64,000 nt of DNA, taken from the NCBI RefSeq assembly GCF_000317575.1, contig NC_019748.1, positions 1,442,001 to 1,506,000 on the forward strand, given 5' to 3'. The stretch's first letter is position 1; each line of letters opens with the position of its first letter. Below are positions 6,642-14,574 of this stretch, one piece after another. This stretch comes from Stanieria cyanosphaera PCC 7437. GTDB taxonomy: Bacteria; Cyanobacteriota; Cyanobacteriia; Cyanobacteriales; Xenococcaceae. The translations under genes were made by a program, and so were the position numbers. A model generated the notes under the pieces. That model saw only the letters and a program-made list of their open reading frames with translations, made no database searches and was not told the origin of the DNA.

Positions 6642-7904
6642 TTATGCCATCATGCCACTAAAGAAATCGATTGTATCTTTTAAAGCAATAATAAAGTCAT
6701 CAATTTCGGCACGAGTGTTGTAAAAATATAAGCTTGCTCTGGCACTACCAGAAGCATCAAAAAGACGATGTAATGGTTGGGTACAATGGTGTCCAGAACG
6801 AATTGCTACTCCTTCATGATCGAGTAAGGTTGATAAATCACTGGCGTGAATTCCTTGTACATTAAATGCAGCTAAAGCAGCCCGATTTTTCCCATCAAGT
6901 TTTGAGGTTGCACCATAAATTCTTAGTTGGGGAATTTCCACTAATTTTTTAAATAAATAAGTAGTTAATTCTTCTTCGTAGGCATGAATTTTTTCCATAC
7001 CAATTGCAGTTAAATAATCAACGGCTGCTCCAAGAGCGATCGCTTCTCCAATCGCTGGTGTTCCCGCTTCAAATTTATGAGGTAATTCTCCATAGGTTGA
7101 ATGGTCAAAATAAACTTCAGAAATCATTTCACCGCCACCTAAAAAAGGAGGCATTGCTGTTAGTATTTCTTTTTTGCCATAGAGAAAACCAATTCCTGTT
7201 GGTCCACACATTTTATGTCCAGAAGCTACTAACCAGTCACAATTAATTTGTTGAACATCAATAGCCATGTGAGGGACACTTTGACAAGCATCAACTAATA
7301 CTTTCGCCCCGAATTGATGGGCTAATTCAATAATGTTTTCAATAGGATTAATACAACCTAAAGTATTAGAAACGTGAACAACTGCGACAAGTTTAGTTTT
7401 GTTTGACAATAAAGATTTATATTGTTCTAAATCAAATTCTTCTATCTCAGTTAATTGTACGTATTTAATGACTGCACCCGTCTTCTGAGCAATAATTTGC
7501 CAAGGAACGATGTTACTATGATGTTCCATGACAGAAAGAATAATTTCATCACCGCGATTTAAATTACTTAAACCCCAACTATAGGCAACTAAATTAATTG
7601 CCTCCGAAGCATTACGAGTATAAATAATTTCTTCTCGATGAGCAGCATTAATAAATTTAGCAACTTTATTTCTTGCTCCTTCATAACCTTCAGTTGCTCT
7701 AATACTTAAACTATGTGCGCCACGATGAACATTAGCGTTATCTTTTTCATAGTAATTAAGCAAGGCATTTAAAACTGCTTGAGGTTTTTGAGAAGTAGCA
7801 GCATTATCAAAATAAATTAAAGGTTTTTCGTGGATTTCTTGAGCTAAGATTGGGAAATCTGAACGAACTAAATCGGCAATAGTTTTGGCTTGGGTAAAAG
7901 TCAT
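6642..7904 (-). CDS. sufS: SufS, group II cysteine desulfurase
   Basis: PLP-dependent desulfurase that supplies persulfide sulfur for Fe-S cluster assembly. The PLP lysine is in [13 protein letters not shown] (K231 from the chosen start), the active-site cysteine is in RSGHHCTQP (C374), and EHHSN and DACQ-type PLP contacts are visible. About 420 residues is normal for SufS. The frame also opens with TTG two codons earlier (7910), but I chose ATG at 7904. Last gene of sufC-sufD-sufS, 105 bases after sufD. Confidence 0.92.
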
Positions 7905-8009
7905 AATCAATTATCGATATTTTTTTGTATAAAACAAACTGGTAAGCAAATCAATGCAGATAAACAACTTAAATTATTGTTAGCTGATTCTGCATCATTC
8001 TCACACTCA

Positions 8010-9344
8010 TTAACTACTAGTTTTCTTAGCTACGATTGTTGCTATTTTAGTAGACAAAGATTTAAGTGAAATACGCTCAATAATTTCTGCGGTAAAACCA
8101 TTAATTAATAACTGACGAGCATTATCTTCAGTTAAACCACGACTACGAAGATAGAAAATTTCTTCAGCTTCTAATTGACTAACAGTTGCACCATGAGAAC
8201 ATTTAACATTATCAGCAGTAATTCGTAACTCTGGTTTAGTATCAACACGAGCTTTGGGAGATAATAATAAGTTACGATTCAACTGAGCAGCATTAGTTAG
8301 TTGTGCTGCTTTGGGAACAAATACTTTACCATTAAAGATAGTATGAGCGCGATCGCTTACTAAACATTTATGTAACTGATTGGTAGTACCATGAGGTTTG
8401 CTTAAAGCAATAATACTATGAGTATCGGCGGTTTGTTCGCCGTTAGCTACAGTTAAACCATTGAGATAGGTTTCTGTTTGTTCTCCTTGTTGAGAAATTT
8501 CAGGGTTATGACGAGATATCTTACCACCGAAGTTAAATTCAGTTAAAGTGTAACGACTAGCACGTGCTTGGGAAACGGCTGTTTTTCCAATATGATAGGC
8601 AGTTTCTGACTCTGTTTGAAAACGAGTATGATTAATTTGAGCATTTTCTCCTAACCAAATTTCAGTCACAGCATTAGTTAGATAAGAAGATTGCCCAGTA
8701 TACTCTTCAATTATATTTAAACTACAATTTTTTTCGGCAACAATCCAGCTTCTTGGTTGAGAAAAACTAATGGAATCTTCTGTAACAGAAATAAATAACA
8801 AATGAATTGGTTGTTCAACTACAGTATTTGGTGCAGCCCAAATAATTGCCACGTCAGTAATACTAGCAGTGTTTAAAGAAGTAAAAACCTCTTCTGCACC
8901 TGCTTGAGTTCCCAAATAGGGACGGAAATATTTACAATAAGCTTCTGGTAAATTAGTTAGATTCCCAACGTAAATACCTTTGGGTAAACCTGAAGTATTC
9001 GATAACTCAGGCGCATACAACCCGTTAACAAAAACAATGCGACTTTCAGTAGCTTCGGGAATCAAATCAATTGTATCGCTTTCAACAGTACCAGACTTAG
9101 CAGCAGTAAAATCTAAATCAAGTAGAGATGATAAATCTGTAAACCGCCATTCTTCATCTTTTTTACTAGGAAATTTCAACCTAGATACCCAAGATGCAGA
9201 TTGTTCTCTTAAATTTTCTAGCCAAGTGGACGTTTCTGAATCTAGTTTCTCTTTGGGAACAGAAGAACGTTGTTGTAAGATTTTAAGTAAGAAAGGATCG
9301 CTCTTAATTTGTTCTCTAGAAGTTATCATCGATGATTGACTCAT
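8010..9344 (-). CDS. sufD: SufD, Fe-S cluster assembly scaffold subunit
   Basis: 444 residues of the SufB/SufD beta-helix family. The N-terminal part has KDEEWRFTDLSSLLDLDF and the C-terminal core has CSHGATVSQLEAEEIFYLRSRGL, both typical of SufD. SufD partners SufB and the ATPase SufC in the SufBC2D complex that builds clusters and acquires iron. Its ATG shares one base with the sufC stop (TAATG at 9346-9342), so translation is coupled. Confidence 0.95.
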   Translation of the reverse strand: MSQSSMITSREQIKSDPFLLKILQQRSSVPKEKLDSETSTWLENLREQSASWVSRLKFPSKKDEEWRFTDLSSLLDLDFTAAKSGTVESDTIDLIPEATESRIVFVNGLYAPELSNTSGLPKGIYVGNLTNLPEAYCKYFRPYLGTQAGAEEVFTSLNTASITDVAIIWAAPNTVVEQPIHLLFISVTEDSISFSQPRSWIVAEKNCSLNIIEEYTGQSSYLTNAVTEIWLGENAQINHTRFQTESETAYHIGKTAVSQARASRYTLTEFNFGGKISRHNPEISQQGEQTETYLNGLTVANGEQTADTHSIIALSKPHGTTNQLHKCLVSDRAHTIFNGKVFVPKAAQLTNAAQLNRNLLLSPKARVDTKPELRITADNVKCSHGATVSQLEAEEIFYLRSRGLTEDNARQLLINGFTAEIIERISLKSLSTKIATIVAKKTSS

Positions 9345-10120
9345 TATGCACCTACCTCCACCACAGCTTTGTCATCGAGGAAGTCATAACCACGAGATTC
9401 TAATTCTAAGGCTAATTCTTTACCGCCACTAGTTACAATTTGTCCATTTTGCATCACGTGAACAAAATCTGGTTCGATGTAATTGAGTAACCTTTGATAG
9501 TGAGTAATGACGAGGTAACCTTTTTCAGGAGTTTTGAGTTGATTGACACCTTCAGCTACAATTTTCAAAGCATCAATATCTAAACCAGAATCAATCTCAT
9601 CTAAAATAGTCAAGGTAGGATTGAGTAAAGCCATTTGCAAAATTTCGTTACGCTTTTTCTCTCCACCAGAAAAACCTTCGTTGAGACTTCTTTCTAAAAA
9701 GCTCGATTTCATTTGAACAATTGCCAACTTTTCTTCGATTAAGTCTTCAAAATCAAAAGTATCGATTTCTTCCAAACCTTCATGTTTCCGTTTGGCATTA
9801 TAAGCAACTCGCAGAAAATCTAAATTACTAACCCCAGGAATTTCTAAAGGATACTGAAAAGCCAAAAAAATACCATTTAAAGCTCTTTCATTAGGCTCTT
9901 GCTCTAAAATATTTTCACCTTTGTAAATAATTTCACCACCAGTTACTTGATAGTCGGGATGTCCAGCAATAATTTTAGATAGGGTGCTTTTTCCCGAACC
10001 ATTACGCCCCATGATGGCATGAACTTCTCCCGCTTTAATTTCCAAATTGACACCTTTAAGGATCGGCGTGCCGTCTACACTAGCAGCAAGATTGTGAATT
10101 GATAAAATAGTTTCGCTCAT
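9344..10120 (-). CDS. sufC: SufC, Fe-S assembly ATPase
   Basis: 258-residue ABC-type ATPase. Walker [10 protein letters not shown] at residues 38-46, signature SGGEKKR at 151-157, Walker B ILDEIDSG at 172-179 with the SufC-typical GLDIDALK after it, and an H-loop histidine in VITHYQRLL. It powers the SufBC2D scaffold. First gene of the local suf operon. Two SufR-like operators lie 117-179 bases upstream. In most cyanobacteria sufB precedes sufC, but here it does not. Confidence 0.97.
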
Positions 10121-10236: not shown

Positions 10237-10299
10237 TTAAACAACACTTTTGTTGTTTAAATCCATTGTAGGATACATTAACAACAAAGATGTTGTCAA
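10237..10299 (-). promoter_or_regulatory. Candidate SufR-controlled promoter of sufCDS with two operators
   Basis: Two inverted repeats of the form CAAC-N6-GTTG occur 40 bp apart, centre to centre. Operator 1 (10237-10260) has perfect 10-bp arms TTAAACAACA / TGTTGTTTAA around CTTT. Operator 2 (10278-10299) has 9-bp arms with one mismatch, TTAACAACA / TGTTGTCAA, around AAGA. On the minus strand a TTGACA -35 (10294-10299) sits in operator 2, and TATCCT (10270-10275) 18 bases later fits a -10, putting the start point against operator 1. CAAC-N6-GTTG is, as I recall, the reported palindrome of the cyanobacterial Fe-S repressor SufR. The exact start point is inference. Confidence 0.75.
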
Positions 10300-10599
10300 A
10301 GTCGGTTTTAATTTAGTTTGATTGGGTTATCCCTCTTATGTCACTCTCCGAATTCAAGTAGTAACAAATCGAGAAAATTATTCCGAAAGAAAAAATGGCC
10401 GAAATTGATTTATGGTACTAATTAAACGATGAAATCCTAAGAGCAAAGAAGAGTCCCTCTACCTCTACACAACTTTTAAATGGTGTATGCCAACAGGATT
10501 TAATATCAAATTGCATTGATCGGTTTTCATTCTCAAGAGATTTTTCCTGCCTCAGAATGAGACACTTACTTTCTGTCATTGCTAAACACCAAAGAATTT

Positions 10600-10843
10600 T
10601 TATTCTCTATTGTCCCACCACTCATTTGGGCCAGGTAATCGAGCTAATTGTTGGTAAACTAAAGTTGGCAACTCTTTGAGCGAATAACTGTAAGTTAAAT
10701 CTATCAACTTTTAAGCAGTCATTATTAGTGAATCGCGAACTACTAATTCAGAAAGTCTCATTGGATTATAAATACCCGAAGCCACTTCTACACTAGCAGG
10801 AGCGAACCTCTCGCGTTTATCTGCATTTATTGCGGTAATATAT
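10600..10843 (-). pseudogene. Possible decayed coding remnant
   Basis: One minus-strand frame reads as protein-like for about 80 codons with a single internal TAA at 10711-10713. The downstream part includes YSLKELPTLVYQQLARL and PGPNEWWDNRE before TAA 10600-10602. The upstream part includes ASGIYNPMRLSELVVRDS. It has no start codon or ribosome binding site, and its 5' end runs into a repeat. I do not recognise the family. It may be the tail of a gene lost by rearrangement. Confidence 0.3.
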
Positions 10844-10876
10844 TAAACGCGATCGCCCGATGATCCATTTTCACCC

Positions 10877-10904
10877 GTAGGGGCGAACGGCCGTTCGCCC
10901 CTAC
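10877..10904. repeat. 28-bp perfect palindrome
   Basis: GTAGGGGCGAACGG is followed immediately by its exact reverse complement CCGTTCGCCCCTAC. This is a GGGCGAACG-type extragenic palindrome of the kind scattered in cyanobacterial genomes. There is no T-run on either side, so it is not a normal terminator. Confidence 0.9.
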
Positions 10905-11208
10905 CATCGCCATATCAAACCGATTTACCCATTTTTCGCGATCGTAATCACCTATTCATCCCTACAATAATCACACCGAATTTATCGAATCGATCTATAT
11001 TTCTTAACCGTAATTACCCGTTCGCATCTACAATATCCACGAAAACCCATTAAATAATAGAATTAATCGCTATTACAAAATCGATTAAAAAAATTTTTTC
11101 CGATGATGATATAAAAAATGATCGAAGTGGGTAATTTTTAAATAGGAAAGGAAAATAACAAAAATCACCCACAAAAACACAAATCACAAACATATAAGGA
11201 AGGATAAC

Positions 11209-11718
11209 ATGAATAACCTATTTGCTGCAAAATTATTACAAAATCTTCGTAACAAAAAAGGTAACAAAGGTTTCACATTAATTGAATTATTAGTAGTTGT
11301 AATTATCATCGGTGTACTTGCTGCTGTTGCGCTACCTAACTTGTTAGGACAAGTATCTAAAGGCAGACAAGCAGAAGCCAAAACCAACCTCGGTGCTTTA
11401 AACCGCGCCCAACAAACTAATCGTTTAGAAAAAGCTACTTTCGCTAACATTACTAATGCCAACTTTCCAGTAAAAGTTACCGGACAATATTATGATTTTA
11501 CTGGTGGTCAAGATGATGGTGGCTTTAGTGGTGTTATGACAGGTATAGCTAAAACCCAATACGAAAATGACGTATTAGACTATGCTGCTGGTGTAGCTTA
11601 CTTCGAGGGTACAATTAATGCTGCCATTTGCGAAGAAACAGCTATTAATGCTGCCGACCAAGATGTTACTGATAATGGTGACGGAACGGTGACATGTGTT
11701 GGCAATCCTGTCAACTAA
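11209..11718 (+). CDS. Type IV pilin-like protein (PilA-type)
   Basis: 169 residues with a 22-residue leader rich in Lys/Asn ending KKGNKG, then FTLIELLVVVIIIGVLAAVALPN, a textbook prepilin peptidase site with Glu at +5 and a hydrophobic assembly helix. The C-terminal half has a cysteine pair (AAICEE and VTCVG) that could form the D-region disulfide. It would be processed by PilD and assembled into type IV or pseudo-pili. A strong AAGGAAGG ribosome binding site precedes the ATG. A terminator follows, so it may be transcribed separately from the second pilin gene. Major versus minor pilin cannot be decided. Confidence 0.88.
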   Translation: MNNLFAAKLLQNLRNKKGNKGFTLIELLVVVIIIGVLAAVALPNLLGQVSKGRQAEAKTNLGALNRAQQTNRLEKATFANITNANFPVKVTGQYYDFTGGQDDGGFSGVMTGIAKTQYENDVLDYAAGVAYFEGTINAAICEETAINAADQDVTDNGDGTVTCVGNPVN

Positions 11719-11794
11719 TGTTATGACAATTTAAGCTTTGCCCAGCATATTATGGTTTAAGCTGATTCTCTCAATTGTCAAAATCTAAATATAC

Positions 11795-11850
11795 TGGGGA
11801 AGAAAACTTAACTTTTTGCTATAAGTTCTTCCCCATTTATATTTTTAATA
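11795..11850 (+). terminator. Likely terminator after the first pilin gene
   Basis: TGGGGAAGAA(AA)CTTA at 11795-11810 pairs with TAAGTTCTTCCCCA at 11822-11835 (two bulged bases), followed by TTTATATTTTTAAT. The stem is strong, the U-tract interrupted. Confidence 0.65.
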
Positions 11851-11866
11851 TTAATCAACCTAATTT

Positions 11867-11978
11867 TATAGCAATTCTCAATTTGGTAAAATACACCCAT
11901 GCTGAAGTTAGGTAAGAGGAAAGACAAATTTTTTAACTAAGTTTAAATTTGTACTTCATCTATTTGAGAACCGCTATA
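11867..11978. repeat. MITE-like element with terminal inverted repeats
   Basis: A 112-bp segment bounded by TATAGCAATTCTCAATTTGG (left) and ATTTGAGAACCGCTATA (right, inverted), matching at about 15 of 20 positions. It contains no ORF. Its length and ends suggest a small non-autonomous element between the two pilin genes. Confidence 0.45.
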
Positions 11979-12013
11979 TTTCACAATAAAAATTAAATTT
12001 ATTATTGAATATC

Positions 12014-12517
12014 ATGACAAATATTTGGATTGAATTAATCCAATTGTTATTTAATTTTAAAAAACAACGAGGATTTACTTTAGTCGAATTATTAGTTGTA
12101 GTTTTACTGTTTAGTGCTTTGTCTATAATTGCACTACCTAATTATGTTAACCAAGTCGAAAAAGCAAGAGTAGCTGAAGCAAAAGTAAATCTGGGAGTTC
12201 TCAACCGATCACAACAAGCGTATTATTTCGAGAAAGCAACATTTGCTGATGACATGAGCGATTTAGGTACTAACTTATCAATAAGTAATGGCTTATATAA
12301 CTACAGTATTGTCACTCCAATAACTAACACTGAAGTGCATCATTTAGCAGAGCCAATACTAAAGTATGCTGGCGATCTCAAAATTATGACCTCTGCGGTT
12401 TTTAGAGTGGAAAATGCCTTTCTTTATACAGTCTGCGAAAGTAATACGATTGGTGTAACCCCAGCTATAGTCAATGGTACACCAATTACCTGTACTAATG
12501 GTCAAATTATTCAATAA
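12014..12517 (+). CDS. Second type IV pilin-like protein
   Basis: About 167 residues. The leader ends KKQRG and is followed by FTLVELLVVVLLFSALSIIALPN, a prepilin cleavage site with Glu+5. After the assembly helix it shares KAR.AEAKVNLG.LNR.QQA.. with the first pilin, so the two are paralogues. Two C-terminal cysteines (YTVCES and ITCTNG) fit a disulfide loop. I chose ATG 12014 rather than the TTG three codons upstream. The downstream membrane-protein gene follows within 31 bases and is probably co-transcribed. Confidence 0.85.
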   Translation: MTNIWIELIQLLFNFKKQRGFTLVELLVVVLLFSALSIIALPNYVNQVEKARVAEAKVNLGVLNRSQQAYYFEKATFADDMSDLGTNLSISNGLYNYSIVTPITNTEVHHLAEPILKYAGDLKIMTSAVFRVENAFLYTVCESNTIGVTPAIVNGTPITCTNGQIIQ

Positions 12518-13478: not shown

Positions 13479-14574
13479 CTGATGTTACGCAAAAGCTAGA
13501 ATAAAAAAATGGATAAAAAGCTTTTGGAACTATACGGCGATTACGTTATTAGCTCTTTTGGACAAATCACAGCAACAGGATTGTCAAGAGCATTAGAAGG
13601 AAGTATCAGCCACGATCGAATAACCCGCTTTCTTTCGTTACAAAACTTAGAGTCTAAAGAGCTATGGAAACTAGTAAAACCAGTAGTGAGAAAGTATGAA
13701 CAAGAAGATGGGGTGCTGATTGTGGATGACACTATCGAGAAAAAACCTCATACCCAAGAGAATGAGTTAGTGTGCTGGCATCATGACCATCAAGAAAACC
13801 ATTCTGTCAAGGGAATTAACATCATCAACTATGTTTATAGTGTCGAAGACATAAGCCTACCAATTGGGTTTGATGTGGTCAAAAAGTCCATAAAATTTTG
13901 TGAGGTAAAAACAAAGAAGGAAAAACGAAAAGCAACAGCAACAAAAAATGAATTAACACGAAATCAATTAAAAATTTGCTCCCAGAATCAACTCAAATAC
14001 AGGTATGTGCTAGCCCAGGGTTGGTTTTCCTCAAAGGAAAATATGGTTTTTATCCGTCAGGATTTAGACAAGCAATTTATCATGGCTTCTTCATAGCAAT
14101 CGTACGGTAGCCTTGAGCGAAGAAGACAAACAACAGGGTAGTTTTACACGAATTGATGAACTCAAATGGTTAGAACAAGTGTCAGTCAGAGGATGGCTTA
14201 AAGGACTGGACTTTCCTGTTCTCATCCATCGTCAAGTCTTGACAAACCAAGATGGAAGTACTGGTATTTTGTATTTAGCTTGTAGTGATTTAAGCTGTAA
14301 TGTCCCTCAGATAGAAGCAATCTACAAAAAACGGTGGAAAGTGGAAGTCTTTCATAAAACACTCAAGTTTAATACTGGTTTAGCTAAATCCCCAACTAAA
14401 TGTATTCGTACTCAAGTAAATCATATCTTTATGTCTATCTATGCTGCATTCCAATTGGAGTGTTTAAAATTGAAACACAAGATGAATCATTTTGCTTTGC
14501 GTAGTAGTCTTTATGTCAAAGCTTTGCAACAAGCTATGTGTGAATTACATTTACTCAAGAGTGCGTAACCTCAG
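13479..14574 (+). mobile_element. IS4/IS701-type insertion sequence, 1.1 kb
   Basis: The ends are 14-bp inverted repeats with two mismatches, CTGATGTTACGCAA at 13479-13492 and GTGCGTAACCTCAG at 14561-14574. Both are flanked by TTAGTAT (13472-13478 and 14575-14581), which looks like a target duplication. The element holds one transposase gene broken by a frameshift. Confidence 0.8.
13509..14568 (+). pseudogene. IS4/IS701-type DDE transposase, frameshifted
   Basis: The first part (13509-14096, 195 codons) has LIVDDTIEKKPHT, the first catalytic Asp region, and NHSVKGINIINYV. It stops at TAG 14094-14096. The next frame continues at once (...SNRTVALSEED) to 14568 and contains the IS4-family YREK-type signature in YKKRWKVEVFHKTLK. 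Joining the two needs a one-base shift near 14090. No slippery run is visible there, so this is more likely a mutation than programmed frameshifting, and the copy is probably inactive. Confidence 0.85.

Follow-up and report, generated by a model that had tools for sequence, protein, structure and literature searches.

The window analysed here, i.e. the whole 64,000-nucleotide stretch C1:1442001-1506000 of Stanieria cyanosphaera PCC 7437 (genome of 5,544,990 bp in six contigs), contains a sufCDS operon on the minus strand, and this study concerns the SufR-type promoter in front of it. The operon consists of sufC (9344-10120; TIGR01978, 361.7 bits, cut-off 212.8), sufD (8010-9344; TIGR01981, 292.6 bits, cut-off 222) and sufS (6642-7910; TIGR01979, 609.4 bits, cut-off 475.1), and is preceded by a promoter-operator cassette of 64 bp at 10237-10300, also on the minus strand. 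The first-pass annotation of this DNA had described two CAAC-N6-GTTG palindromes 40 bp apart, one of them with perfect 10-bp arms, and both were found, as CAACACTTTTGTTG at 10242-10255 and CAACAAAGATGTTG at 10282-10295, their starts being 40 bp apart. The first forms the core of the palindrome TTAAACAACA-CTTT-TGTTGTTTAA (10237-10260), which has the perfect 10-bp arms, while the palindrome around the second has 9-bp arms with 8/9 pairs matched. Read on the minus strand, the site at 10282-10295 is operator 1, CAACATCTTTGTTG, and that at 10242-10255 is operator 2, CAACAAAAGTGTTG. Also on that strand, and placed as the annotation had proposed, are a -35 box TTGACA (10294-10299), which is retained in every aligned sufC cassette of the family, and, 18 bp after it, a probable -10 box TATCCT (10270-10275), of which T26, A27 and T31 are invariant in 28 aligned cassettes; TACAAT, immediately past TATCCT, is an alternative -10 box. 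Operator 1 overlaps the TTGACA sequence, and operator 2 lies just beyond the predicted transcription start of sufC. On the other side of the cassette, the expected gene-free stretch of about 900 bases (10301-11208) was confirmed, the sole open reading frame of at least 80 aa reaching into it being the end of one antisense to a pilin-like gene. No sufR or sufB remnant was found in this gap by BLASTN of the sufC upstream region against the sufR-sufB locus, and an Rfam scan of the gap and its surroundings gave no match to a known RNA element.

The earlier annotation had suggested that sufB and sufR were moved or lost from this locus. The whole-genome search showed that they are separated from sufCDS rather than lost, since both occur in the genome, divergently oriented and 142 kb away (measured from cassette to cassette): sufR at C1:1593664-1594269 on the minus strand (TIGR02702, 330 bits, cut-off 178.8) and sufB at C1:1594560-1595936 on the plus strand. 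Loss of either gene is thus rejected, and sufB, sufC, sufD and sufS all score over their NCBIfam cut-offs (TIGR01978 to TIGR01981). The translated SufR retains the CX12CX13CX14C cysteine pattern by which SufR binds its cluster (PMC8593673). The region between sufR and sufB contains a two-operator promoter as well, with CAACATCTTTGTTG followed 40 bp on by CAACAAATTTATTG, so that operator 1 is identical at the two loci. Hence the genome has the sufR-sufB half of the typical cyanobacterial arrangement, divergent genes with operators between them, while the direct sufB-sufC junction of a cyanobacterial sufBCDS operon is replaced by a distance of 142 kb. A cyanobacterial-type sufR in the genome and CAAC-N6-GTTG operators at the sufC promoter are two sequence features of a cyanobacterial SufR regulon which this genome shows.

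Similarity between the two promoters goes well beyond the operators. BLASTN of the sufC upstream region against the sufR-sufB locus gave one strong block of 71 bp (90% identical, E = 1.5e-22); beyond this block no similarity of that order was seen. We also built a profile from sufB cassettes only, taken from 21 other genomes with the genus of the window excluded, which had a single full-length match in the window, at 10300-10237 (E = 1.3e-17), the remaining reported matches being at 0.008 or weaker. When the whole genome was searched with model R1, which was made from both cassette kinds (sufB and sufC), two full cassettes were found, with E = 2.6e-18 for the sufC copy and E = 3.1e-18 for the other, and no third full cassette (next best E = 0.02); because R1 includes the window's own copy, it is the BLASTN comparison and the sufB-only profile which serve as independent tests of the sufC cassette. 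Plasmid records were searched for near matches of the cassette, and there were none. Judged from these alignments, the sufR-sufB and sufC promoters are paralogous, the latter being a duplicate of the former, and the proposal that sufCDS has stayed in the SufR regulon gains support at the genome level, with a matching two-operator cassette before both halves and an intact sufR gene.

We expanded the comparison to 293 genomes of the order, 27 from the family of this cyanobacterium and 266 from outside it, counting a second cassette at E <= 1e-7. By this measure a second cassette is a family trait, since only 1/266 genomes outside the family has two. In that genome (G275, L257:1501-1559) the second SufR-like cassette lies upstream of an apparent LysR-type regulator gene and not of suf genes. 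Within the family the cassette adjoins sufC in 24/27 genomes. In 17 family genomes with sufC the cassettes were scored for register over 52 positions; they have their operators in the same register and match at 43 to 51 of these positions (maximum of 30 for shuffled sequences), the other seven being further family genomes. The three exceptions are G002, in which sufB is still upstream of sufC, G010, in which sufC was not found in the assembly, and G036, which has no clear sufC cassette. Conversely, G020 to G029 and 29 loci outside the family have an upstream sufB on the strand of sufC, and at none of them does a cassette precede sufC; the G019 locus is interrupted by contig ends. The split itself can be seen within single long contigs of G000, G001, G013, G015 and G030, where the distance from the sufB half to the sufC half ranges between 55 kb (G030) and more than 1 Mb, which indicates that the two halves kept moving.

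Maximum-likelihood analysis of SufB, SufR and SufC groups all split genomes in a single clade (support 100), whose sister within the family is G002 (support 96), albeit that this tree was built from the genes in question and that unrelated marker genes would serve better. Between sufB and sufC of G002 there is a frameshifted DUF29 gene (L230:5972-6586). Column 28 of the cassette differs consistently within the family, being T or G before sufC and A before sufB, and this fixed difference fits a single duplication. A tree of the 64-bp cassettes is too weak to prove one sufC group, as the sufC copies of G000, G001 and G008 are nearer to sufB copies. The simplest reading of these comparisons would be one old fission that took place after G002 had branched off, in an ancestor common to the split genomes, and left the promoter on both products. 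No description of a divided suf operon in these cyanobacteria was found among the papers open to our search, which cover only a minority of subscription journals. Altogether we consider it very probable that the window holds the sufCDS half of a sufBCDS operon split once after G002 had branched off, and that both halves carry the same SufR-type cassette, by which they would be derepressed together.

The strongest competitor concerns how the split arose and not how the genes function at present. The whole of sufR-sufBCDS may have been duplicated, after which sufCDS disappeared from one copy, and sufR and sufB from the other, so that the promoter of the latter was joined to sufC. Such a history would account for the cassette before sufC being complete and matching that of sufB in orientation and register, and we regard it as a serious possibility, to which we give somewhat less than even chances. 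It would sit less easily with the lack of any sufR or sufB remnant near sufC in this genome, or with the observation that no family genome was seen with two suf operons, but both are weak evidence because they would also be expected for an old event. Flanking genes were compared to tell which half had moved, and were too variable to decide this or to choose between a promoter copied by itself and a duplicated operon.

In Synechocystis, the oxidised holo form of SufR binds CAAC-N6-GTTG and acts as a repressor of suf, and repression is relieved when the cluster is reduced, lost or lacking (PMC7058544, PMC13421787, PMC8593673). At each of the two loci, part of the -35 box and the spacer lie within operator 1, and operator 2 is just beyond the predicted start; SufR at either locus should thus block polymerase. 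We therefore propose a scheme in which SufR carrying its Fe-S cluster would occupy the operators at both loci and block RNA polymerase, whereas iron shortage, or reduction of or damage to the cluster, would release SufR and derepress both halves together, so that synthesis of SufB would keep pace with that of SufC/SufD for the SufBC2D complex. In this scheme we infer SufR occupancy, the transcription start site and the coordinated expression of the two halves, and we conclude that the separated suf halves are probably still switchable together.

Some observations weigh against such joint control. The bare CAAC-N6-GTTG motif is at background in the genome (88 sites vs 102 for a reversed control), and in G008, G013 and G017 the sufC cassette has a degraded operator 1, with the -35 box and operator 2 remaining. 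Some members of the family may thus have loosened SufR control, and tight co-repression of the halves does not appear to be strictly kept family-wide. Carried further, this would mean that the sufCDS cassette has drifted from SufR control and is now an ordinary promoter or under another regulator, and the operator spacers, which differ between the sufB and sufC loci in many genomes, could be taken the same way as the three decayed operators. Set against this, operator 1 keeps all eight half-site bases in 14/17 sufC cassettes, and in operator 2 at least 7 of the 8 are intact in 17/17, this genome included, and we consider drift improbable.

Two further explanations would do without copying altogether. 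Operators are short, and -35 and -10 boxes share a common constraint, which might allow the sufC operators to have an independent, convergent origin; yet the identity of the two promoters spans the whole 64-71 bp, including the sequence that separates the operators and their spacing of exactly 40 bp, which makes convergence very unlikely. Chance palindromes before sufC, for which the background frequency of the lone motif in the genome and its near-chance frequency in the window (3 vs 0.82 expected) might speak, are virtually out of the question and were rejected, as the full 64-bp cassette is far above chance in the sufB-only profile search and is conserved before sufC in 24 genomes; pairs of CAAC-N6-GTTG sites within 100 bp are themselves unusual, the expectation for one genome being about 0.14.

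SufR-like two-operator cassettes were also seen at other genes in some relatives. One precedes a gene for a sigma-70-family factor in G034 (L233:7949-8010), G007 (L232:2770-2832) and G002 (L234:6298-6359), relatives of different genera, in which the sigma factor shares 73% (G007) and 72% (G002) identity with the G034 protein; in G007 and G034 it is followed by a gene for an Mrp/ApbC-like ATPase (Fe-S carrier). G002 has a second such cassette before a thioredoxin-reductase-like gene (L231:6559-6620), as well as two additional, more distant SufR-family proteins. Two-operator cassettes may thus have been copied to other genes. That the two-operator SufR promoter is a small cassette which, by being copied, builds up and rewires the SufR regulon of this group, to sufCDS at the time of the split, to the sigma-70-family factor and, in G002, to the thioredoxin-reductase-like gene, is a tentative idea which we think rather unlikely to be correct as a whole, but if true, the copying of a cassette would place a sigma factor under Fe-S cluster control. 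Elsewhere in the window, past the gene-free stretch, are two neighbouring type IV pilin-like genes (11209-12517; Pilin_GH, N-methylation motif), and further on an apparent transposase gene seen by eye in two pieces (13509-14096 and 14113-14568, within 13509-14568), apparently interrupted.

The SUF genes of cyanobacteria are reportedly essential (PMC7058544), and since their products act in one complex, splitting the suf operon should be costly unless its control is kept. What looks like a single fission, with a repressor-type promoter at either side that has been retained in 24 genomes, amounts to a natural test of whether operons are maintained for the sake of co-regulation or of proximity, and the split suf genes lend themselves to studying whether replacing co-transcription by co-repression disturbs the balance of the subunits.

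This is a new arrangement of the known suf/SufR system, and not a new system. It is like the sufR-sufBCDS locus of Synechocystis PCC 6803 and other cyanobacteria (PMC7058544, PMC13421787, PMC8593673) in having sufR divergent from sufB, in its CAAC-N6-GTTG operators, and in the order and direction of sufC, sufD and sufS; it is unlike the PCC 6803 locus in that 142 kb separate sufB from sufCDS and that the cassette is present twice, once for each half. Similarly, SufR has been implicated in the control of a gene outside sufBCDS proper, ftrC of PCC 7942 (PMC13421787), whereas in the present genome a detached half of the core operon itself has a promoter copy of its own.
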